The position numbers and the translations under genes were made by a program. From Falsiroseomonas oryziterrae (GTDB lineage: Bacteria; Pseudomonadota; Alphaproteobacteria; Acetobacterales; Acetobacteraceae): 45,653 nucleotides of DNA. This document shows, one piece after another, positions 1,437 through 34,845 of this stretch. Within the stretch, counting starts at the first letter, position 1; every line of letters begins with the position of its first letter. The notes under the pieces are model-generated. The model was not told where the DNA came from. It ran no database searches and worked only from the letters and a program-made list of their open reading frames with translations. Location: assembly GCF_021864505.1 (NCBI RefSeq), contig NZ_JAKJIB010000005.1, positions 1-45,653 of the forward strand, in the 5' to 3' direction.

Positions 1437-3236
1437 CTATCCGCCGAAGCTCCCGACCGGCACGCCGGCCACGCCCGCATCGAAAGCGAAGACCGAACCC
1501 GAGAGCGGCGCCTCGGCGAGCTGCGCCGCCGAGAGCCGCACGCGGGCGCTGGTGATGAACAGGGTGCGAAGCCCCTCGCCGCCGAAGGCGAGGCTGGTCG
1601 GCCGCGGGACGGGCAGGTGGACCAGGCGATCGAGCTGGCCATCCGGCGCGTAGCGCGCGACGCTCCAGCCGTCCCAGAGCGCGACCCAGACGAAGCCCTC
1701 GGCGTCCACCGCCAGGCCATCCGGCTTGCCTTGCGCCTCCGGCACCACGACGAAGGGACGCCGGTTCGTCGCCGTCCCGGTCGCGAGGTCGTAGTCATAG
1801 GCATAGACCGTCCGCGAGCCGGTATCGGTGAAGTAGAAGGTCCTGTCGTCCGGACTCCAGCCGAGGCCGTTTGAGACATGCAGCCCGGTCTCGACCGCGG
1901 TCAGGCGCAGGTCGGGGTCGAGCCGCCAGAGCGTGCCCTGGCCCGGCCCCGCATCGAGCGCCATGGTCCCCGCGAAGAGCCGCCCGGCGCGGTCGCACTT
2001 CGCGTCGTTGAAGCGGTTGGAGGCCTTGCCCGGCTCGGGCACGGCGAGGACGGCGCCCGCACCCGCCTCCGGATCCCAGAGCCGGATGGCGTTGCCGATG
2101 GTGGCGACGAAGCCGCCCGCCCGCCGCGGCACCACCGCGCCGACCAGTTCCGGCACGGGGACGACGCGTTCCTCGCCGGTCGCGGGGTCGCCCAGGTGGA
2201 TGGCGGGGGCCAGGATGTCCACGAAGGCCAGCTGTGCCGCCTCGGCCAGCCAGACCGGGCCCTCGCCCAGGAAGGGGCGCGAGCCGATGGCGAGCCGCAG
2301 GCCCGGGCTCGGCGGCGCCGAGGGGCGCGTCGTGGCGATGGACATTTCGACGTGCCCCGCATTGCCGGAGATGCGCCGCGCCGCCTCGATCACCTCGCGC
2401 CCCAGCGCGTGCAGGCGGTCGGGTGGCAGGCGGAAGCTCGGGCCAAGCACGCAGACCGCGGCGATCGGCTCGCTGAGGTGGTTCAGCACCGGCGCGGCGA
2501 CGGCGGCGACACCCTCCACGCTCTCCTCGATCGAGACCGCGTAGCCGCGCGCCTTCACCAGGTCGAGGTCGCGCTGGAAGGCGTCGGAGGAGGTGATGGT
2601 GGCAGCCGTCAGCGGCGTGAGCTGCAGCGCGGTGAGGCGCCGCCGGCGCTCCGGCGGCGGCAGATGGGCGAGGATGACCTTGCCGACGGCCGAGGCGTGC
2701 AGCGCGGCACGCGCGCCCACCCCGTAGCCGAGCCGCACGCCGGGCCGGACCGCCTCGCGCTGGTCCACGTAGAGGCAGCCGTCGCCGTCCAGCACGGCCA
2801 GTCGCGCGGTCTCGTTGCTGATGGTGGCGAGCCGCGCGAGCTCCGGCTCGGCGGCGCCGCGCAGGTCGAGCGAATCCCAGACCCGGTGCGCCATCTCGAA
2901 GACCTTGAGGCCGAGGCGCCAGCCGCCGGTCTCGGCCTCCTGCCGCAGCAGCCCGGCCTCGGCGAGCGCAGCGAGCATCCGGTGCACCGTCGCGCGCGAC
3001 AGGCCGGCCTGCTCCGCGATGGCGGCGGTGCGCAGCGGCGCGGGCGCGGCGGCCACGAGGTCGAGGAGGCGGAGCGCGCGGAGCAGCGCCTGCGTGCCTT
3101 GCACGGAGCCGTCCGCCGCGCCCTCCGCCTCGGGGCGGGGGGGCAGGGAGGGCGCCTGGCGGAGCGGCCGGTTGCTGCGCATGCCACAATCTGGGCGCGC
3201 TTTCCACGATGTGGTCAAGCCGGATCGCGCCCGCAT
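1437..3236 (-). CDS. IclR-type regulator fused to an SMP-30/gluconolactonase domain
   Basis: One 599-residue reading frame holds two complete domains. Residues about 45-105 are an IclR winged helix-turn-helix (AIAEQAGLSRATVHRMLAAL) and 115-295 an IclR effector domain (ALHASAVGKVILAHLP). Residues about 310-599 are an SMP-30/gluconolactonase six-bladed propeller. The expected divalent-metal and catalytic residues of that family are present: Glu325 in LGEGPVW, Asn410 and Asp411 in NRFND, Asn456 in SNGLGWSPD and Asp506 in KPDGLAVD. The ATG at 3236 is chosen because GGAGG lies about ten bases upstream, overlapping the end of the preceding IclR gene, which implies translational coupling. An internal Met298 lies at the domain junction but has no clear ribosome site. 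SMP-30 proteins hydrolyse sugar lactones, so the fusion may couple lactone sensing or turnover to transcription; that is inference. Confidence 0.9.
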   Translation of the reverse strand: MRARSGLTTSWKARPDCGMRSNRPLRQAPSLPPRPEAEGAADGSVQGTQALLRALRLLDLVAAAPAPLRTAAIAEQAGLSRATVHRMLAALAEAGLLRQEAETGGWRLGLKVFEMAHRVWDSLDLRGAAEPELARLATISNETARLAVLDGDGCLYVDQREAVRPGVRLGYGVGARAALHASAVGKVILAHLPPPERRRRLTALQLTPLTAATITSSDAFQRDLDLVKARGYAVSIEESVEGVAAVAAPVLNHLSEPIAAVCVLGPSFRLPPDRLHALGREVIEAARRISGNAGHVEMSIATTRPSAPPSPGLRLAIGSRPFLGEGPVWLAEAAQLAFVDILAPAIHLGDPATGEERVVPVPELVGAVVPRRAGGFVATIGNAIRLWDPEAGAGAVLAVPEPGKASNRFNDAKCDRAGRLFAGTMALDAGPGQGTLWRLDPDLRLTAVETGLHVSNGLGWSPDDRTFYFTDTGSRTVYAYDYDLATGTATNRRPFVVVPEAQGKPDGLAVDAEGFVWVALWDGWSVARYAPDGQLDRLVHLPVPRPTSLAFGGEGLRTLFITSARVRLSAAQLAEAPLSGSVFAFDAGVAGVPVGSFGG

Positions 3237-24726: not shown

Positions 24727-27096
24727 TCACCGTGGTCTGCGTCTTTCGATTTCAGCAAGGAGCGCGGCTGCGTCGCGGTCCTGGGGATCCAGCTCAAGGG
24801 CGGCCCTCGCGTGCCCCGCCGCCTGCACCAGCCGGCCGCGGTCGCGCTCGAAGGTCGCGGCCGCGATCAGACTCTCGCGATGCCTGGGATGTCGGACGAG
24901 TATGGCGAGCGCCTCATCCACGCGGCCCTGGCGATGAAGTGCGAGCGCGTGCGTATAGGCGTAGCGCGGTTGCTCCGGCGCCAGCCTCGCTGCGGCCGCC
25001 AGCATGTCCGTTGCCTCGTTGATCCGTCCGCGTCGGACCTGCAGGAGTGCCAGTGCGTAGAGCGGGTCGGCCTCGGCAGGATGCGCGGCGACGGCGCGGC
25101 GCAGCAGCGCCTCGGCAGCGTCGGGCTGGCCGCGCGCTTCCTCGAAGGCAGCTTTGTTGACCAGGGCGGGCAGGAAAGTGTTGTCGCGCGCCAGCGCGGC
25201 GCGATAGGCCGCCTCAGCGCCTGCCCGGTCGCCGCGCAGGGCGAGCAGTGCGGCAATGTTAACATGCGCCTCTGGCCGCTCCGCCGCCACTCGCTCGCTG
25301 GCCAGCAATTCGTCCCATGCCCGCGCGAAAGCAGGCCGTGCGGCCTCCGGCAGCGCCTGCAGCGGTACGGGCGCCAGCGCGCGCGCGGCCTCGATGCGCA
25401 CCAGGCGCACCTCATCGGAGAGCAGCCGTGCGGCGTGCAGGCGGTTCTGTGGTGGAAGTCCCTCGAGCGCGCGCAGCGCTGCAGCCCGAACCAGCGGTTC
25501 CGGGTCAAGCAGCGTACCGCCGATCGCCTCTCCCACCGCGCGGGTCGGGGGGGTGGGCAGCAGCGACAACGCGGTGGCGCGAAGGATTGCCGGCTGCGCG
25601 AGGTCGAGCGCCAACCGCGCCAATGCCGTGTCGGCGCCGCGTGCGCCCTCGCGGCCAGCATGGATCGCGAGCGCCGGGTGTGGCCCGCCGCGCGGCGGGC
25701 CGTGCCAAGCGGCAAGGTGCGACGCCGCCCAGGCTTGAGTCTGCCCGCTATGGCAGGATGTGCAGGCATCGGGCGCGCCGATAGCCGCGGCGACGTCGGG
25801 GCGCGGGATGGAGAAGGCGTGATCCCGGCGCCGGTCCACTCCCATGTAGGTGACCGCTGGCATGTGGCACGAGACGCATTGTGCACCGGCGCTGCCCGCA
25901 GCGTGGCGATGATGCTCCGGCGCCTCGAAGCGGGCGGGCAGGTGGCATTGCGTGCAGACCGCATTGCCCTCGGCGCGCAGCCTTCCACTGTGCGGCTGGT
26001 GGCAATCGGCGCAGACCACGCCGGCTCGCTGCATGCGGCTCTGCGCGAAGCTGCCCCATTCGAACACCTCGCCCTGGATCTGGCCGTCCGCGTGGTATTC
26101 GCCGCGCGCCAGCAGCAGCGGCGCGTGGGTGTCGAGGAAGCGCGTACCGGGCAGCGGGTCGATGACCAGTGGGCGCGCGCGGGAATGGCAGGGGGCGCAG
26201 GTCTCGACACCGGCCTGCGTCGCTTGACGTGGCGGGCCGTCCCAGCGCGCGATGCCGCGTGCATCGCCCTTGATGAAGCGCCAGGCGCCGCCGGAGCGGT
26301 CGCGTAGCGCGACCTCGAGGCCAAGATGTGGCACGTCGGGGCGCGCACCGGCGCGCGCCCAGGCGACATGGGCCGCACCGCGGCCATGGCATGATTCGCA
26401 TCCGACGCTGATCTCAATCCATGTCGTGTCGTAGCGGTCGCGCGCCGCGTCGTAGCCGCGCACCAGCCCGGTCGAGTGGCAGGACGCGCACATGAAGTTC
26501 CAGTTCTGGTCGCGCCCGGTCCAGTGCATCGGGTCGCCGGCGCGCAGCGTCTCGTCCGGCATGAGGTGGTACCAGCGCTGGCCACCGGCTTCGCGCGGGC
26601 GGCTGTCCCAGGCCCAGGGCAACGCCTGACGGCGTCCGTCTGGCATCAGCACGAGGTATTGCTGCAGCGGATCCACGCCGAAGGTCTCGCTGACCGTGAC
26701 ATCCGCAACCGCGCCGCCGGGACCGTCGGTGCGGATCAGGAAGCGGTCGGCGTCACGCCGGAAGAGGGCCGCGTGCCGCCCATCGGTCACGCTGACGCCG
26801 GAGAAATCGCCGAGCACGGTCGCCGGCGTCGCCGCCGCCATGGCGCGGGCGTGGTCGCTGTCCCGCCAGTCGGCCGCCTCGGCGGCGTGGCAGGTCGCGC
26901 AGGTGGCCGAGCCGACGAAGCCCGTGCGCGCGCGCTCCGTTGCGACAACGGGCATGGCGCCGTGGAACAGCGCCGTGGCAAGCGCCGGCAGCAGGATGCC
27001 GAGGCAGAGCAAGGCGAACAGCGCCGCGCGCCGCAACGCGGCGCTGCGCGTGTCGCGGTGCGCGGTGAAGGGCGAGCCCGGCCTAGAATCTGGCAT
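24727..27096 (-). CDS. Octaheme c-type cytochrome with HEAT-like and TPR repeats
   Basis: A 789-residue protein with one N-terminal hydrophobic helix (about 22-48), so either membrane-anchored in the periplasm or exported. Eight CxxCH haem sites follow, at residues 66, 203, 233, 300, 362, 381, 407 and 445. The layout recalls cytochrome c554/NrfA-like multihaem proteins. From about 480 to 590 come HEAT/PBS-lyase-like helical repeats (LLDPEPLVRAAALRALEG), and from about 605 to the end tetratricopeptide repeats (AEAAYRAALARDNTFLPAL and successors). Electron-transfer and protein-docking modules are thus fused. The start overlaps the last 14 bases of the barrel gene. I infer a periplasmic redox scaffold working with the barrel and arylsulfatase of the same operon; its substrate is unknown. 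Confidence 0.88.
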   Translation of the reverse strand: MPDSRPGSPFTAHRDTRSAALRRAALFALLCLGILLPALATALFHGAMPVVATERARTGFVGSATCATCHAAEAADWRDSDHARAMAAATPATVLGDFSGVSVTDGRHAALFRRDADRFLIRTDGPGGAVADVTVSETFGVDPLQQYLVLMPDGRRQALPWAWDSRPREAGGQRWYHLMPDETLRAGDPMHWTGRDQNWNFMCASCHSTGLVRGYDAARDRYDTTWIEISVGCESCHGRGAAHVAWARAGARPDVPHLGLEVALRDRSGGAWRFIKGDARGIARWDGPPRQATQAGVETCAPCHSRARPLVIDPLPGTRFLDTHAPLLLARGEYHADGQIQGEVFEWGSFAQSRMQRAGVVCADCHQPHSGRLRAEGNAVCTQCHLPARFEAPEHHRHAAGSAGAQCVSCHMPAVTYMGVDRRRDHAFSIPRPDVAAAIGAPDACTSCHSGQTQAWAASHLAAWHGPPRGGPHPALAIHAGREGARGADTALARLALDLAQPAILRATALSLLPTPPTRAVGEAIGGTLLDPEPLVRAAALRALEGLPPQNRLHAARLLSDEVRLVRIEAARALAPVPLQALPEAARPAFARAWDELLASERVAAERPEAHVNIAALLALRGDRAGAEAAYRAALARDNTFLPALVNKAAFEEARGQPDAAEALLRRAVAAHPAEADPLYALALLQVRRGRINEATDMLAAAARLAPEQPRYAYTHALALHRQGRVDEALAILVRHPRHRESLIAAATFERDRGRLVQAAGHARAALELDPQDRDAAALLAEIERRRPR

Positions 27097-27937
27097 TCAC
27101 AGCGAGATACGCCCCGCTCATCGTCACATCCTGCACGAGCGACCGGCCGCCCTGGTCGTAGGAAAGGTGTCGCCAGCCGAGCTGCACGCCCCCCCATCCA
27201 GTACGATAGCCGATGCCCGTGAAACCCTGCCAGGTCAGGTTCGAATCGCCGCCGCCGATGTCGAGGTAATAGGGCACGAAGAAGCTGGAAGCGCCGATGT
27301 TGATCTGCCCCCGGACGCCGACGATGCCGTTCCAGATGTCGTCGGTGCCGGAAAGCCGCCCGGCACCGCCGAAGCTCGGGCCTGCATTCCCGCGTGGCCC
27401 CTGCAGGGTGACGGTGAGGTTGTAGTCGGTCCTGGCCTCGACCCCGAGGTATCGGAAGCCGGCCAGCGCATCGATGTTGCCCCACGCCCCCGCGGCCAGG
27501 GTGTAGCCGCCTGCCAGCGTCCAGAGCGTCATCTTCAGGTTGGATTCGCCCGATGCATTGGCGGTGCTCGAGACCGGGTTGCGCCCGACGCCCACGATGT
27601 CCAGCGCCTGCACGCGGCTCGATCCGGCATCGGCGCTGACATACATGATGTCCGTCATCAGCGTGAACCGGTCGTAGCGGACCATCGCCGCCAGCAGCAG
27701 CGCGGCGTTCAACTGCTCGAAGTAGTCGCCAGCATCCGCCTTGACGTTCGCCGATCCGCCGAGCGCGGGCGGCAGGTCGTAGCGCAGGTTCCCGCTGATC
27801 GTCGGCAGCCAGAGATAGGGCGCGACCTCGAAGCTCCAGCCGGGGCGCGGCCCGTGCTGCTGCGCCGCCGCGCCCGTGCTGAGGCCGAGGGTAAAGAGCG
27901 CCGCGACGGCACCGGCCTTCCAGTTATTCGACGTCAT
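27083..27937 (-). CDS. Small outer-membrane beta-barrel protein
   Basis: A 284-residue exported protein. The leader ends at GAAAQ; the mature part is rich in alternating aromatic and polar residues and Gly, e.g. WSFEVAPYLWLPTISGNL, NIDALAGFRYLGVEAR and GFTGIGYRTGWGGVQLGWRHL. It ends in Phe (VNARF), the usual signal for BAM-mediated insertion. Repeated strands of about ten residues and turns rich in Asn/Asp/Gly indicate a barrel of perhaps 10-12 strands. It starts 20 bases after the arylsulfatase stop and overlaps the cytochrome gene, so the three are co-translated. It may be a small pore for the sulfatase substrate or product. It is much shorter than the MtrB-type barrels of porin-cytochrome conduits. 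Confidence 0.82.
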   Translation of the reverse strand: MTSNNWKAGAVAALFTLGLSTGAAAQQHGPRPGWSFEVAPYLWLPTISGNLRYDLPPALGGSANVKADAGDYFEQLNAALLLAAMVRYDRFTLMTDIMYVSADAGSSRVQALDIVGVGRNPVSSTANASGESNLKMTLWTLAGGYTLAAGAWGNIDALAGFRYLGVEARTDYNLTVTLQGPRGNAGPSFGGAGRLSGTDDIWNGIVGVRGQINIGASSFFVPYYLDIGGGDSNLTWQGFTGIGYRTGWGGVQLGWRHLSYDQGGRSLVQDVTMSGAYLAVNARF

Positions 27938-27957
27938 CCGATGCCGTCTCCGCGATT

Positions 27958-30462
27958 CTAGTTGCGTTGCGTCGACGGCGCTACAGATCGCTGGCGACGC
28001 GCCATCTCCTCCTCCAACAGGCGAAGCGCCGCCGGGGTTATCGTGCTGTCGCCATAGTCGATGGTCAGCCGCACGATCCGCCCGCTGAAGGGGTTGGGCG
28101 AGGTGTAGTCGCGGTCGTCCACCGAGGTGCCGGTGTCGAGGCCGACATCGAAGGTCTCATCCCATGCGACGGTGAAGGGCAGCGTGTTCGGCAGCGCGCG
28201 CTGCGCCACCTGCGTGCCGTTGACCGTCAGCGTGCCGGTGCCGCCGCGGCCGAAGGGCAGGCCCTCCGGCAGCATCTGCCAGTCGAAGACCACTGTGTGG
28301 CGGCCCGGTGGCAGCGCCGTCGGCGCTTCCCAGCGATGCCGCGCGGTGTTGAGGAAGTTCCAGGTGAAGACGGGCCTTCCCTGGTGCAGGTAGAAGCCGT
28401 AGCCGGCGAAGCGCCCGCCCTGCGTCACCAGCACGCCGTTGGCCCCGCCCTGCGGCACCTCGATCTCGGCCGTGATGCGGTAGGAGCGGTTGAGCAGGTT
28501 CGGCGCCGCGCTGCCCTGGATGGCGGAGACGGGGCCGGTGTAGGTGAACTGCCGCCGCCCCGCCACCGGGCCGGGCCGCACCGAGATCAGCCGCGTCAGC
28601 GTGGAGTTGTCGAGCGGGAGCACCTGGTAGCGCGTCGCCTCCATCAGGAAGATCTCCTGCATCATGCGCAGCCTCGCGGGCTCGCGCGCCGCCAGGTCGT
28701 TCATCTGCGTCGGATCCTCGACGAGGTTGTAGAGCTCCCAGGTGTAGCCGTTGAGCACGTCGGCCGGCTTCGGCGACTGCGAATCCCAGGGCGGCACGGG
28801 TGGCGTGGTGCTGGCCATCCAGCCATCGTGGTAGATGGCCCGGTTGCCCATGATCTCGAAGTATTGCGTCCGCCGGCGCGACGGCGCGTCGCGGTTCGCC
28901 GCGTCGAAGGTGTAGGCCATGCTCACGCCCTCGATCGGGCGCTGCGCGACGCCGTTGACCATGGCGGGCGCCGGGATGCCGGTCGCCTCCAGGATGGTCG
29001 GCACCACGTCGATCACGTGGTGGAACTGGTGGCGGATGCCGCCGCGGTCGGTGATGCGGCGCGGCCAGGAGATCGCCATGCCGTTGCGCGTCCCGCCGAG
29101 GTGGGAGGCGATCTGCTTCGTCCAGCGATAGGGGGAGTTCAGCGCGAAGGTCCAGCCGATCGCCTTGTGATTGTAGGTCTGGTCGGTGCCCCAGGCGTCG
29201 AGGTAGGGCATCATCTGGTCGGCGCTGAACAGCAGGCCGTTGAACCAGGCCACCTCGTTCACCGTGCCGTCGGGCCCGCCTTCCGCGCTGCCGCCGTTGT
29301 CGCCGCTGATGTAGATGATGAGCGTGTTGTCGAGCTGCCCGGCATCCTCCACCGCCTGGATCACGCGGCCGATCTGTTCGTCGGTGTAGGCGAGGTAGGC
29401 GGCGTAGATCTCCATCTGCCGCGCATAAAGCCGGCGCTGGTTGTCGGTCAGGCTCTCCCAACGCGGGATGAAGTCGGGCAGCGGCGGCAGCTGCGCATTG
29501 GCGGGAATAACGCCGAGGCGCCGCTGGTTCTCGAAGATGCGCCGGTGCAGCACCTCCCACCCGGCGTCGAACTGGCCGCGGAAGCGCTCCGCCCATGCGC
29601 GCGTCGGGTGGTGCGGCGCGTGCGTGCCGCCCGGCGCGTAGTGGATGAACCAGGGCCGATTGGGCGCGACGGAGGTGATGAGGCGGATGTGGTCGATGGC
29701 GTCGTCGGCCATCGCGGTGGTCAGGTTCCACTCCGGCCCGGCGCCGACATTGGGATGGATCGGCGTGGTGTTGCGGAACAAATTGCCCGGCTGCCACTGG
29801 CTCGTGTCGCCGCCGACGAAGCCGTAGAAATAGTCATAGCCCTGGCCGGTCGGCCAGTTGGTGAAGGGCCCGGCCGGGCTCGCTTCCCAGGTCGGCACGT
29901 TGTGGTTCTTGCCGAACCAGGCGGTGGCGTAGCCGGTCTGCCGCAGGGTCGCCGCGACATGCGCCGTCTCCGGCGGGATGATGGAGTTATACCCGGGGTA
30001 TCCCGTCGTCAGCTCCGAGATCACACCGGCGCCGACGGAGTGGTGGTTGCGCCCGGTCAGCAGCGCGGCGCGCGTGGGCGAGCATAGCGCGGTGGTGTGG
30101 AACTGCGTGTAGCGCAGACCGGCGGCCGCGACGCGATCCAGCGCCGGGGTCGGGATGACGCCGCCGAAGGTGGAGGGCGCGCCGAAGCCGACATCGTCGG
30201 TCAGGATCACCAGTACGTTCGGCGCGCCTTCCGGCGGCATCACCTGCGGCGGCCACGCCGGCTGGCTGTCGGCTGCGTTGGGCATGATCAGGCCGGCAAA
30301 GGGCGGCGTGGGGGCCGGCAGGCTGAAGGGGTTCGGCGTCATCACCGCATCCGGCGCGCCGGGCGTGCCGCGGATCTGCTGCGCCAGCGCGGTGGTGGCG
30401 AAGGCGCCGAAGGCCAGGCCAGCGAGCACGACCCCGGTTGCGAGCGCTCCGGAACATCTCAT
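27958..30462 (-). CDS. Arylsulfatase (formylglycine-dependent), exported
   Basis: An 834-residue type I sulfatase that hydrolyses aryl or alkyl sulfate esters in the periplasm. After a leader (ending ATTALAQ) the alkaline-phosphatase-like domain begins VLVILTDDVGFG with the metal-binding Asp pair at 89-90. The active-site motif is CSPTRAALLTGR; Cys127 would be converted to formylglycine. Further metal and sulfate ligands lie in GGTHAPHHP and ISGDNGG. From about 610 a beta-rich C-terminal domain follows (YRITAEIEVPQGGANGV onward). The length matches large AtsA-type arylsulfatases. ATG 30462 follows GGAGGAAAGCCCG. The formylglycine-generating enzyme is not in the window. It is the first gene of the operon with the barrel and the octaheme cytochrome. 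Confidence 0.95.
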   Translation of the reverse strand: MRCSGALATGVVLAGLAFGAFATTALAQQIRGTPGAPDAVMTPNPFSLPAPTPPFAGLIMPNAADSQPAWPPQVMPPEGAPNVLVILTDDVGFGAPSTFGGVIPTPALDRVAAAGLRYTQFHTTALCSPTRAALLTGRNHHSVGAGVISELTTGYPGYNSIIPPETAHVAATLRQTGYATAWFGKNHNVPTWEASPAGPFTNWPTGQGYDYFYGFVGGDTSQWQPGNLFRNTTPIHPNVGAGPEWNLTTAMADDAIDHIRLITSVAPNRPWFIHYAPGGTHAPHHPTRAWAERFRGQFDAGWEVLHRRIFENQRRLGVIPANAQLPPLPDFIPRWESLTDNQRRLYARQMEIYAAYLAYTDEQIGRVIQAVEDAGQLDNTLIIYISGDNGGSAEGGPDGTVNEVAWFNGLLFSADQMMPYLDAWGTDQTYNHKAIGWTFALNSPYRWTKQIASHLGGTRNGMAISWPRRITDRGGIRHQFHHVIDVVPTILEATGIPAPAMVNGVAQRPIEGVSMAYTFDAANRDAPSRRRTQYFEIMGNRAIYHDGWMASTTPPVPPWDSQSPKPADVLNGYTWELYNLVEDPTQMNDLAAREPARLRMMQEIFLMEATRYQVLPLDNSTLTRLISVRPGPVAGRRQFTYTGPVSAIQGSAAPNLLNRSYRITAEIEVPQGGANGVLVTQGGRFAGYGFYLHQGRPVFTWNFLNTARHRWEAPTALPPGRHTVVFDWQMLPEGLPFGRGGTGTLTVNGTQVAQRALPNTLPFTVAWDETFDVGLDTGTSVDDRDYTSPNPFSGRIVRLTIDYGDSTITPAALRLLEEEMARRQRSVAPSTQRN

Positions 30463-30607: not shown

Positions 30608-31732
30608 TCATGCCGAGGCGAGCGTTTCCGACGGCAACTCGCCGAACAGGGCCCGGTAGTCCCGTGCGAAGTGGCGAAGATGCCAGAAGCCATGGTCGAG
30701 GGCGACGGACTTCACCAGCTCCGGGCTGTCCCCTCGGCCCCGCAGCGCGCGTCGCGCCAGCAGCAGCCGGCGCGACTTGAGATATGCGTGAGGGCTCATG
30801 CCCAGCGCTGCATGGAACGCATCGTGCAGCCGCCGCGCGGAGACGCCGAGCGCCGCGCACAACTCTTCCGTGTAGATGGGCCGGGCCAGCCGCGCCTGCA
30901 TGAAGTCCTCCGCCGCCCGGACCAGGCGCAGCGCCGCCGCGACGGCGCGCGGGCGCGACCTGATCCCCGCCTGCGTCGTCAGCGCGGCCGCAACCTCCTC
31001 GCGCAGCGCCATCGCGAGGCCGGTTGCGCAGGCCGGGGAGGACAAGCCGGCCGGCAGGCTTTCCGCCATGGTGCTCGCGGCCGCGACCACTCCAGCGAGG
31101 CGTGCCGATCGCTCGGGCGGGAGCGACAGGACGCTGAGCTCGCCCCGGAGCCGCAACTGCGGCGGGGCGAGCTCGGCGAGTTCCTCGAGCATCGGCAGCG
31201 GCAGGGCAAGCGCGCCCCAGCTCAGCGGCTGCGGGTTGAAGCCGGTGATCTCGGCACCGCCGACAGCCAGCACCGCCTCGGTCGACGCCACCTCGGTCCC
31301 GTTCAACCGCGCGGGATGGCGGGCGGCCTGCTGGTAGAGCATCAGCACCGCCATCCCCGGGCTGACCCCGCCGCGGACGACATGGCCGGACGTGTCGGCC
31401 TGCTGCACCACCATGTCGCCGACCTGCAGCACGCGGAGCGTCGCGGCGAAGGGGGCCTCGCGCACCGGGACATAGTCGAACTCACCGCCGAGAAGGGCGG
31501 AGGCGAAATGGTCCGGCTCAGCGAAGCGCCTCGTCAGGCCGGCAGAGGATCCCGCCCCCTCGAGACCAATCATGGCACCCCCGATGACGGCGTGACAGCC
31601 GCCGATCTGCCGCCGCAGGCCGACGCCCGGGTCCAATTGCGACAGGGTTCCGAGCCGGGTGCAAGGCGAGGCTGCCGCGCCGAGCTGCCGCGGGGTCACG
31701 GCCGCGGCATCAGGCTTGCCGAATCCGGACAT
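30608..31732 (-). CDS. AraC family transcriptional regulator
   Basis: A 374-residue regulator. The C-terminal AraC domain (about 265-374) has the two helix-turn-helix units, first YTEELCAALGVSARRLHDAF, then VKSVALDHGFWHLRHFARDYR near the end. The N-terminal part is a beta-rich AraC-binding-like domain that I cannot assign to a ligand. ATG 31732 is preferred to 31852 because GGGGAAAGC precedes it and the extension is an Arg/Pro-rich artefact. It lies 145 bases upstream of the arylsulfatase on the same strand and is divergent from the DUF2092 gene 92 bases away. It may regulate either or both; this arrangement suggests control by the sulfatase substrate or by sulfur supply, but that is inference. 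Confidence 0.92.
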   Translation of the reverse strand: MSGFGKPDAAAVTPRQLGAAASPCTRLGTLSQLDPGVGLRRQIGGCHAVIGGAMIGLEGAGSSAGLTRRFAEPDHFASALLGGEFDYVPVREAPFAATLRVLQVGDMVVQQADTSGHVVRGGVSPGMAVLMLYQQAARHPARLNGTEVASTEAVLAVGGAEITGFNPQPLSWGALALPLPMLEELAELAPPQLRLRGELSVLSLPPERSARLAGVVAAASTMAESLPAGLSSPACATGLAMALREEVAAALTTQAGIRSRPRAVAAALRLVRAAEDFMQARLARPIYTEELCAALGVSARRLHDAFHAALGMSPHAYLKSRRLLLARRALRGRGDSPELVKSVALDHGFWHLRHFARDYRALFGELPSETLASA

Positions 31733-31824
31733 GCTTTCCCCGTACCCCGGGGCGCTGGAGCGCCTAGGCTTCGTGCCCGATGCCGGCCGTCGCGGACGGC
31801 ACGCCCCGCGGCGGATGGAGACGC

Positions 31825-32676
31825 ATGATGCAGAACCGAGGCGACGCGGCACCCGGCCTCGCGCCGCGCGGGCTTGGCGCAGGCGGCGCGATGGCGCGCC
31901 TCCGGTCGCGGCTGTGGCGGGTGGCGCCTCTCGCGGCCTTCGTCTTGGCCTGGGTGTTGGCGGCGCCTGCTGCGCCGCGCGCGCAGGGCGGGATGGACGC
32001 CGATTCGCGCGCCGTGCTGGCCGCCATGTCGGCGCATCTTGGCGGCCTCCGTAGCTTCTCGGTGGAGTATGCGGCGGTTGACGAGGTCGTTACGACGGAC
32101 GGACAGAAGCTCCAGTTCCTGCATTCGGGCAGCCTTGCTGCCCAGCGGCCCGATCGGCTGCACGCGGTGCGCCGCGGCGCCGCCGGCACGGCGGAGCTCG
32201 TGCTGGACGGCAACAGCGTCATGATGTTCGGGCGCGATGCGAACGCCTATCTCCGCCTGCCTGCGACGAGCATCGCCGCCGCGGTGGAGGCGGTGCAGCG
32301 CCTGGGCTTCGATGCGCCCGGCGCCGACCTGCTCGCGGAGCGTCCGATGGACGGCGCGACGACCGACATCACGACCGGCGCCCATGTCGGGATGACCTTC
32401 ATCGAGGGCGTCGAGGTGCATCACCTGGCGTTCCGCGGCGTCGAGGTGGACTGGCAGATCTGGGTGACCGCGGGCGACCGGCCGCTGCCGCTGCGCTACG
32501 TGATCGTCAGCAAGTCGGTGACGGGCAGCCCGCAATACACGCTGCAACTGCGGAACTGGAGCATCGCCCCGGCGGCCGACCCTGCGCGCTTCGTCTTCAC
32601 CCCGCCCCCCGGCGCGCGGCAGATCGAGCCTTCGTCGGTCACCGTGAACCCGATCGGCGACCTGATCATCAGATGA
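31825..32676 (+). CDS. DUF2092 family periplasmic protein
   Basis: A 283-residue protein with a hydrophobic leader (VAPLAAFVLAWVLAAPAAPRAQ) and a mature part resembling DUF2092, an uncharacterised family with a LolA-like half-barrel. Recognisable stretches are LAAMSAHLGGLRSFSVEYAA, HAVRRG and the end FVFTPPPGARQIE. Lol-type folds bind lipids or hydrophobic ligands, but no function is established for DUF2092. GGAGACGC precedes two adjacent ATGs at 31825 and 31828. The small basic protein follows after 17 bases, and an AraC regulator diverges upstream. Confidence 0.8.
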   Translation: MMQNRGDAAPGLAPRGLGAGGAMARLRSRLWRVAPLAAFVLAWVLAAPAAPRAQGGMDADSRAVLAAMSAHLGGLRSFSVEYAAVDEVVTTDGQKLQFLHSGSLAAQRPDRLHAVRRGAAGTAELVLDGNSVMMFGRDANAYLRLPATSIAAAVEAVQRLGFDAPGADLLAERPMDGATTDITTGAHVGMTFIEGVEVHHLAFRGVEVDWQIWVTAGDRPLPLRYVIVSKSVTGSPQYTLQLRNWSIAPAADPARFVFTPPPGARQIEPSSVTVNPIGDLIIR

Positions 32677-33804: not shown

Positions 33805-34845
33805 CTACAGGCTTATGCCGATCCCAAAGGACACGCCGGTGACGCCGTTGTCGCCCAGGAAGTAGCGGCCGATGAAGCGCACGCGTTCCATGTTGATGCC
33901 GAAGGCGCCAAGTTCCCACCGCCCGGTGTCGAACTCGATGCCGCCGCCGACCTTGATGGACCAGTCGAAGCCGAGAGCGTCGCGCTGGTCGCCGAGATAC
34001 CAGCTGGCCGAGCCGTCCAGCACCCAGCGCATCGGGCGGCCGAACGCCTCGACGCCGGTTGGCCAGCGATAGCGCGTCCACAGGCCGAGCGTGCGGGCGG
34101 TGGACCTCGCTTCGGCGATGGACGGCGTATCGCCGAAGGTCTCGATCCGGAGCTGGGTGAAGCGCAGTTCGACATCGATGTCGCGCTCCGGGCGATAGTC
34201 GTAATAGGCGAGGGTGAGCGCGCCGCCGAGGCCGAAGGCGCTGACGTGCTCGCCTTCGAGCACCGCGGCGGAGGCGCCGCGGCGGAGCTGCAGGAGGTCC
34301 GCCAGGAGCGTCCGGTCGCCGGCCGCATAGCCGCCCGCGACGTTGACGATCGGCCGCAGCCATAGGTTCTCCGCGATGGCGATGTCGTAGCCGACGCCCA
34401 GTGTTCCGGTGAAGTTGTTCCAGCGCACGGGCAGCCGGGGTGCATCCTGCCCGCCAAGGTAAAGAAGCGGATCGTAGCGCGCGTAGCCTGCGTAGATCTC
34501 CAAGTAGAGCGGGAAGGCTTCGCTCACGGTGAAGCCGAAGCCGAACTGGCTGAGCGTCAGAGCTGTGTCGCCTGGCCCAGCGGAGGTTCGGTTGATCTGC
34601 ACGGCATTCGCCGAGCCGTCGGGGATCATGTTGTATCCCATCAGCCCGAGGACCCCGCTGCCGAACTGGCGGTTGGCGAGGTCAGCACCGGCGAACCGGC
34701 CGGCCAAGGCGTTGCGAATGCCCTCGCTGCCGATGAGCGGTTGCGCAGCCGGCTGCCCGAACGGACCGCCCGCCACGGCCAGCAGCAGGACGCCCACGCT
34801 GAAACGCCAAAGGCTCCCCTTGAAGCCCCACCGTGCTTTCGTCAT
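33805..34845 (-). CDS. Outer-membrane beta-barrel protein
   Basis: A 346-residue exported barrel. The leader is LLLAVAGGPFGQPAAQ. The mature part alternates aromatic and polar residues in short strands: FPLYLEIYAGYARYDPLLY, GTLGVGYDIAIAENLWLRP, RWVLDGSASWYLGD and the terminal strand GVTGVSFGIGISL. Regions such as NVAGGYAAGDRTLLADLLQL resemble autotransporter-like or whole-cell-antigen barrels but there is no passenger domain. The ATG at 34845 lacks a strong ribosome site; a GTG at 34854 has GGGAG seven bases upstream and could be the true start. No partner gene is adjacent. The role is unknown. Confidence 0.75.
   Translation of the reverse strand: MTKARWGFKGSLWRFSVGVLLLAVAGGPFGQPAAQPLIGSEGIRNALAGRFAGADLANRQFGSGVLGLMGYNMIPDGSANAVQINRTSAGPGDTALTLSQFGFGFTVSEAFPLYLEIYAGYARYDPLLYLGGQDAPRLPVRWNNFTGTLGVGYDIAIAENLWLRPIVNVAGGYAAGDRTLLADLLQLRRGASAAVLEGEHVSAFGLGGALTLAYYDYRPERDIDVELRFTQLRIETFGDTPSIAEARSTARTLGLWTRYRWPTGVEAFGRPMRWVLDGSASWYLGDQRDALGFDWSIKVGGGIEFDTGRWELGAFGINMERVRFIGRYFLGDNGVTGVSFGIGISL

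Follow-up and report, generated by a model that had tools for sequence, protein, structure and literature searches.

The window analysed here is a stretch of 45,653 nucleotides, positions 1 to 45,653 of contig NZ_JAKJIB010000005.1 of Falsiroseomonas oryziterrae (GCF_021864505.1). Its open reading frames and their Pfam matches give a minus-strand run of four genes, in the order AraC-type regulator, sulfatase, small outer-membrane beta-barrel, and octahaem c-type cytochrome. The sulfatase and the cytochrome genes very probably serve one function, and their pairing recurs across families far beyond chance. As a whole, the run is best explained, though tentatively, as a periplasmic sulfatase module in which the cytochrome would act on the sulfatase. 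The core of such a module would consist of a Cys-type S1 sulfatase and an exported OcwA/MccA-class octahaem cytochrome with a HEAT/TPR arm, to which the AraC-type regulator (regulation) and the barrel (uptake or export) would be local additions.

Linkage of the sulfatase and cytochrome genes

In the whole-genome set, a sulfatase gene lies within 3 kb of the cytochrome gene in 34 of 52 loci. Random placement, modelled with each genome's own sulfatase count and ignoring sulfatase clustering, would give 0.59 loci (7.5-kb target) or 0.82 loci (10.5-kb target). Counted by family, a sulfatase neighbour is found in 16 of 20 against 0.57 expected. The neighbouring sulfatases are of several types and differ in their orientation to the cytochrome gene. 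The 52 loci include the window, share a few members with the named loci below, and leave out the partial matches G014, G045, G053, G026, and G067. Among the named loci, the sulfatase is within 3 kb in 37 of 54, and in 29 of 35 where at least 3 kb flanks the cytochrome on both sides. These 54 were taken from 57, the weak partial matches L108 and L109 and the truncated, uncalled L092 being left out. Nineteen rows (L057 and L114 being one locus) have the two genes on the same strand with a gap of less than 100 bases or an overlap.

A quick tree was made from 80 cytochromes, of which 51 have a sulfatase. On it, the sulfatase label changes at least 18 times, compared with a mean of 23.9 after shuffling, so the label is clustered. 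The partner type changes 10 times on the same tree. By these changes, gain or loss of the pairing has occurred many times over. L098 stands as a locus lacking a sulfatase in the tree despite a six-frame match; L098 and L070 are restored in the 54-locus count. Full-text searches, judged mostly by title and the beginning of the abstract, found no published account of a sulfatase–octahaem cytochrome pairing.

At E ≤ 1e-40, and with the own genome counted, the cytochrome core was found in 9 of the 385 Alphaproteobacteria and 35 of the 398 Pseudomonadota that were sampled. The nearest named relatives of the window cytochrome are from Roseococcus, Neoroseomonas, and Roseomonas, those of Falsiroseomonas being somewhat more distant.

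Organization of the gene run

The features of the run are as follows.

30608–31852, minus strand: AraC-type regulator (HTH_18), which heads the run
27958–30462, minus strand: Cys-type S1 sulfatase with a signal-peptide-like N-terminus, an AtsA-like catalytic region, and about 230 extra C-terminal residues
30070–30084, minus strand: CSPTR motif, the cysteine of which is expected to become formylglycine
27083–27937, minus strand: small outer-membrane beta-barrel, a lineage-specific accessory
24727–27096, minus strand: octahaem HEAT/TPR cytochrome of 789 residues with an N-terminal signal or anchor helix
25657–26931, minus strand: OcwA/MccA-class octahaem core, residues 56–480 (structure and profile comparison)
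26563–26805, minus strand: beta-rich insert between haems 1 and 2, residues 98–178, with many invariant residues (AlphaFold model, alignment)
25291–25656, minus strand: HEAT-like helical repeats, residues 481–602 (AlphaFold model, HEAT_2 in homologues)
24730–25284, minus strand: TPR superhelix, residues 605–789 (Pfam TPR models, structure search)

An earlier sequence-only reading of this DNA had described an operon of sulfatase, barrel, and cytochrome. Its three genes, the 20 bases between sulfatase and barrel, and the 14-base overlap of barrel and cytochrome are all reproduced from the open reading frame coordinates. It had overlooked the AraC-type regulator directly upstream on the same strand. 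Twelve loci, the window included, have a relative of this regulator no more than five genes from the cytochrome.

Haem core and helical arm of the cytochrome

The cytochrome is matched by the Pfam models Cytochrome_C554, Cytochrome_C7, and Paired_CXXCH and by several TPR models, with TPR_14, TPR_2, and TPR_19 above the Pfam cut-off. It has exactly eight CXXCH sites, at residues 66, 203, 233, 300, 362, 381, 407, and 445. The sites are invariant and in register across 80 aligned rows (the window among them), all of which were chosen for having eight such sites. The eight haems, the length of 789 residues, and the TPR repeats of the sequence-only reading are thus borne out. Its HEAT-like repeats hold in part. 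The AlphaFold model (predicted local distance difference test, 93.9; predicted template-modelling score, 0.91) has paired helices in this region, and HEAT_2 matches 8 of 10 scanned homologues, three of them above the Pfam cut-off, but no HEAT model matches the window protein at E ≤ 1e-3. In the model, the HEAT and TPR helices stand C-terminal to the haem core; OcwA has a C-terminal three-helix bundle. Whole-model Foldseek matches are mostly TPR folds.

The haem core aligns with OcwA (6i5b) with a VIA Z score of 15.8 and a root-mean-square deviation of 3.2 over 327 residues at 24% identity. In an hmmsearch, the core profile matches OcwA (4.7e-23) and cytochrome cf (3e-11) and, weakly, MccA (6e-6), c554, and NrfA. 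MccA and NrfA are not among the 50 VIA matches listed, which is no evidence against either. Judging from these sequence and structure comparisons, the haem half is an OcwA/MccA-class core and, hence, probably a redox enzyme. Across 19 diverse members, the core has a mean column identity of 58% with many invariant residues.

Haems 1–4 and 5–8 of the window cytochrome align with haems 1–4 and 6–9 of OcwA, respectively, and haem 5 of OcwA has no clear counterpart. Outside the CXXCH sites, six histidines (H82, H243, H369, H395, H398, and H426) are conserved in 79 or all of the 80 rows and H191 in 70, while methionines 412 and 418 are invariant. Six near-invariant histidines together with the methionines for eight haems are what would be expected if one haem were open, as is haem 2 in OcwA and MccA; by homology, the open-coordinated haem of the window cytochrome would also be haem 2. 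Passages of PMC6703420 describe haem 2 of OcwA as open and haem 2 of MccA as its active site. They also describe MccA as possibly derived through loss of haem 5, and an extra beta domain in both proteins. From its position, the beta-rich stretch of the window cytochrome would correspond to that domain.

The likeness to OcwA, a nonahaem cell-surface reductase of Thermincola potens, thus lies in the haem core and in the beta-rich stretch separating haem 1 from haem 2. The window cytochrome differs in having eight haems instead of nine, a HEAT/TPR arm, a Gram-negative signal peptide, and the linkage to sulfatases. MccA/SirA (4rkm) shares with it the octahaem state, apparently the same lost haem position, and the c554-like N-terminus. 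MccA/SirA has a CX15CH haem site. The window cytochrome has no CX15CH and, outside its haem sites, a single cysteine (residue 31); no cysteine there is conserved in the alignment, so that copper-capable extra cysteines are lacking. It is therefore not an MccA, from which the HEAT/TPR arm also distinguishes it. An atypical haem site is noted for SirA in PMC6976685.

The sulfatase and its relatives

The window sulfatase matches PF00884 with an E value of 3.8e-56. Its ATG is preceded by GGAGG, and the longest frame extends to 30492; the CSPTR motif (C-x-P/A-x-R) is at residue 137 of this long frame. The closest PDB match is AtsA of Pseudomonas aeruginosa with its variants (1hdh, E 9.2e-57, residues 90–612). 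The DD, GKxH, His, DN, and Lys positions align with those of the AtsA variant 4cxk (HMMER), and we take these positions to have the metal-binding and catalytic roles of their AtsA counterparts. By these comparisons the window sulfatase is a Cys-type S1 enzyme of the AtsA-like kind. The catalytic region, including SPTR, GKxH, His, DN, and Lys, is common to both proteins, whereas the C-terminal extension and the cytochrome gene in the same run set the window sulfatase apart from AtsA.

All 75 readable motifs of partner sulfatases are of the Cys type (44 CSPTR, 24 CTAGR, 3 CSPSR, 2 CSPGR, 1 CTAAR, and 1 CTPSR). The partners number 77, with the single locus L057/L114 counted twice and the fragments L061 and L119 lacking the motif. 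They fall into two or more clearly distinct subfamilies, among them AtsA-like CSPTR proteins and arylsulfatase-A-like CTAGR proteins; the CTAGR protein that was tested has its closest matches among 7aj0/ARSA-type arylsulfatases. This spread argues against a single substrate. The earlier proposal that an aromatic sulfate ester is desulfated and the product then oxidized is unsupported.

The small barrel

No Pfam model matches the barrel at E ≤ 1e-3. Its AlphaFold model (predicted local distance difference test, 79) is nearly all beta beyond an N-terminal helix, and the nearest PDB folds are small outer-membrane barrels, omptins foremost. Members of the barrel cluster, some only 22–28% identical, are found at most 3 kb from the cytochrome in 13 of the 54 named loci, and in L059, L061, L062, L067, and L075 a different small protein separates sulfatase from cytochrome (the L067 member has no Pfam match). 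The barrel is thereby ruled out as a core component, so that of the single envelope system of the sequence-only reading the sulfatase–cytochrome pair stands and the barrel does not. Of the two findings that would have told against that reading, a trio not conserved across genomes or a cytochrome commonly standing alone, about half holds: 6 of the 35 well-flanked named loci and 18 of the 52 whole-genome loci have no sulfatase within 3 kb. Conservation of the ordered trio is limited to the Roseomonas group: among the named loci, the same-strand order sulfatase, barrel, cytochrome is found only in the window and in five others, three of which have an additional called frame in between. The barrel family also adjoins sulfatases where no cytochrome is present.

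The same genome has a second sulfatase locus, L130 (G000:C247:1-4752), with a DUF1254 protein, an AraC-type regulator, and a sulfatase. A barrel paralogue (34% identity) is at 2252–3004 of this 4.8-kb contig, which carries no cytochrome.

Sulfatase-maturing enzymes in cytochrome-bearing genomes

Two systems for making formylglycine have known centres, a copper-bound cysteine pair in the formylglycine-generating enzyme (FGE) and a radical-SAM centre in the anaerobic sulfatase-maturing enzyme (anSME). PF03781 has a match in 44 of the 46 cytochrome-bearing genomes, which include G014 (C-terminal part of the gene only) and G045 (gene at a contig end). The catalytic cysteine pair, read with a motif that we take to be that of FGE, is found in long proteins of ten genomes (G000, G008, G011, G014, G016, G080, G532, G536, G731, and G745; G008 was read through locus L064, taken from its length and position as the same contig). 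We dropped the idea that FGE is near-universal in these genomes, as most of the PF03781 matches that were read lack the cysteine pair. An anSME above the cut-off is found in eight other genomes, and six further genomes have weaker radical-SAM matches; the anSME search covered all 46 genomes at E ≤ 1e-20 and 18 of them at E ≤ 0.01. With intact FGE in ten genomes and anSME in eight others, the cytochrome is ruled out as the sole possible maturase everywhere.

In 27 of the 46 genomes, sulfatase-family genes are present and neither an intact FGE nor an anSME above the cut-off was found; in 18 of these 27, a Cys-type sulfatase was read. The single-contig genome G650 has 17 PF00884 matches, of which 10 were read, all Cys-type, and no match to PF03781 (E ≤ 1e-3) or anSME (E ≤ 0.01). 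G772 has 11 PF00884 matches (10 read, all Cys-type), together with a weak PF03781 match in a 1022-residue protein and a 25-bit match to the anSME model.

Shortened FGE frames also occur. In L288 (G578:C18), a 142-residue FGE frame with the catalytic motif (2090–2518) lies directly beside a sulfatase in a cytochrome-bearing genome, possibly reflecting decay of FGE, and G123 has an 86-residue N-terminal FGE piece.

Possible action of the cytochrome on the sulfatase

Action of the cytochrome on its partner sulfatase, in maturation or repair of the formylglycine cysteine, is the mechanism that we favour, although it is doubtful and at best level with the pathway role discussed below. The HEAT/TPR arm would hold the exported, still unfolded sulfatase, and the open haem, haem 2 by homology, would oxidize the C-x-P/A-x-R cysteine to formylglycine or restore formylglycine, with the remaining haems draining the electrons. 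We infer each of its elements, namely the periplasmic location, the open haem, the binding of the sulfatase by the arm, and the oxidation of the cysteine. The haem half is constant while the sulfatase partners vary, which is easier to reconcile with a target common to all Cys-type sulfatases than with one substrate. The feature that the partners share is the cysteine to be oxidized to formylglycine, and this favours action on the sulfatase. The 27 cytochrome-bearing genomes with sulfatase-family genes in which neither an intact FGE nor an anSME above the cut-off was found speak for it as well. MauG is a precedent for a haem enzyme that oxidizes protein side chains in the periplasm. MauG resembles the cytochrome in being a periplasmic c-haem enzyme acting on residues of another protein and differs in being dihaem and having a different target. 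FGE and anSME would share the task of making formylglycine with the cytochrome, if the hypothesis holds, but show no sequence relation to it.

In its widest form, this reading would make the octahaem cytochrome a third maturation system, a periplasmic haem oxidase that generates formylglycine on unfolded Cys-type sulfatases and replaces FGE or anSME in many Proteobacteria, with MoxR-VWA helpers in one branch; we consider this form quite unlikely. A third sulfatase maturation system appears as an acknowledged open question in PMC8379841 and in the title of Benjdia et al. 2007 in the reference list of PMC6189696. If the link is true, an undescribed octahaem subfamily present in about 9% of the sampled Pseudomonadota genomes gains a defined cellular partner, and a concrete, deletable candidate for the third system is at hand. 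Such a system bears on the breakdown of sulfated polysaccharides and on aldehyde-tag protein engineering.

Several observations weigh against action on the sulfatase. None of the six loci of family f194 has a sulfatase within 3 kb; in three of the six, the cytochrome instead stands behind a GMC/sorbitol-dehydrogenase-like operon. G045 has the cytochrome (cut by the contig end) but no PF00884 match. Four loci (two of them Pfam-tested) have a type I phosphodiesterase, an enzyme that does not depend on formylglycine, at a distance of one or two genes from the cytochrome. All 109 sulfatases with a readable motif are of the Cys type, partners or not, so that this type is not specific to cytochrome partners. 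A bona fide FGE is present in the own genome (G000) as in nine others of the 46, so that maturation in these genomes does not require the cytochrome. The count of 27 of 46 covers cytochrome-bearing genomes only; it includes G489, G493, G566, and G716, with radical-SAM matches of 106–112 bits, below the anSME cut-off, and weak PF03781 matches were only partly read where a genome had several. Of the 398 genomes in the phylum sample, 60 have a strong FGE (≥219 bits, counted by hand): 6 of the 35 that carry the cytochrome and 54 of the 363 that do not, strong matches being as common in one group as in the other. Outside Alphaproteobacteria, the 22 strong-FGE genomes and the 24 cytochrome genomes do not overlap, a weak result since about two shared genomes would be expected, taking a guessed 250 or so such genomes. 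Within Alphaproteobacteria, 6 of 11 cytochrome genomes have a strong FGE. The phylum sample does not show FGE and the cytochrome replacing each other. E. coli is not known to carry the cytochrome; if it has none, the third maturation system suspected there is not this protein. As the sole role of the cytochrome, action on the sulfatase is disfavoured by the FGE of the own genome, the f194 dehydrogenase operon, and the neighbouring phosphodiesterases.

Alternative roles

The cytochrome may instead belong to a pathway in which the sulfatase frees an alcohol or phenol in the periplasm, the cytochrome oxidizes or reduces the product or takes electrons from a dehydrogenase, and the barrel admits the substrate. 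This role is likewise doubtful. It would fit the conserved pairing and the AraC-type control, and GMC-family oxidoreductases lie within five genes of the cytochrome in five loci (four Pfam-tested). In L209, L210, and L211 the GMC gene is two genes upstream on the same strand. Also near are several small proteins, one of them DUF2388, as well as a small subunit of the sorbitol-dehydrogenase type (tested in L209) and a c-type cytochrome (tested in L211). However, four of the five GMC loci (these three and L203) have no sulfatase within 3 kb, and the differing partner subfamilies presumably differ in substrate as well, yet the cytochrome core is strongly conserved. Even as a pathway enzyme, the cytochrome would belong to an envelope redox module that is new.

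It is unlikely that the cytochrome is an OcwA/MccA-like respiratory or detoxifying reductase that acts on nitrite, hydroxylamine, sulfite, or a related oxyanion and whose only tie to sulfatases is shared regulation, such as under a shortage of sulfur or oxygen. The fold class and the lack of a counterpart to OcwA haem 5, a trait shared with the sulfite reductase MccA, are in favour of this role, whereas the lack of a CX15CH haem and of conserved cysteines outside the haem sites excludes MccA itself. Sulfatases liberate sulfate, not sulfite. Genes of nitrogen or sulfur respiration were not recognized by eye among the printed recurrent neighbour clusters, no targeted search being made. The absence of any functional tie, with the genes brought together by the structure of polysaccharide or sulfatase islands alone, is very improbable. 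The loci without a neighbouring sulfatase and the 10–17 sulfatase-family matches of some genomes point that way, but the excess over the less than one locus expected from each genome's own sulfatase count (under a model blind to sulfatase clustering), the 19 closely spaced same-strand rows, and the tree changes argue against it.

Other loci and neighbouring genes

In one gammaproteobacterial branch, genes for a CTAGR sulfatase, the cytochrome, MoxR, DUF58, DUF4381, VWA proteins, and BatD follow one another in this order. About 6 to 9 kb past BatD, G667 also has genes for a type I phosphodiesterase, an FGE-like protein that lacks the cysteine pair, and an anSME. L227 (G667:C1:1380000-1396000) and L183 show this large cluster, which runs from the anSME, the FGE-like protein, and the phosphodiesterase through BatD, VWA, DUF4381, DUF58, and MoxR to the cytochrome and sulfatase. 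At 2640–9876 of L102, one cytochrome gene has three tandem sulfatase genes directly upstream, and G065 has three cytochrome loci (L117, L118, and L119), all of them with a sulfatase gene, or a piece of one, at most 3 kb away.

A promoter scan of the window gave nothing useful, with a single terminator-like site, below the chance level, and no tRNA gene was found in the window. A DUF2092 gene (31780–32676) is divergent from the AraC gene. Farther along, a gene without Pfam matches (33805–34845), barrel-like by eye, is convergent with a bestrophin-like gene.

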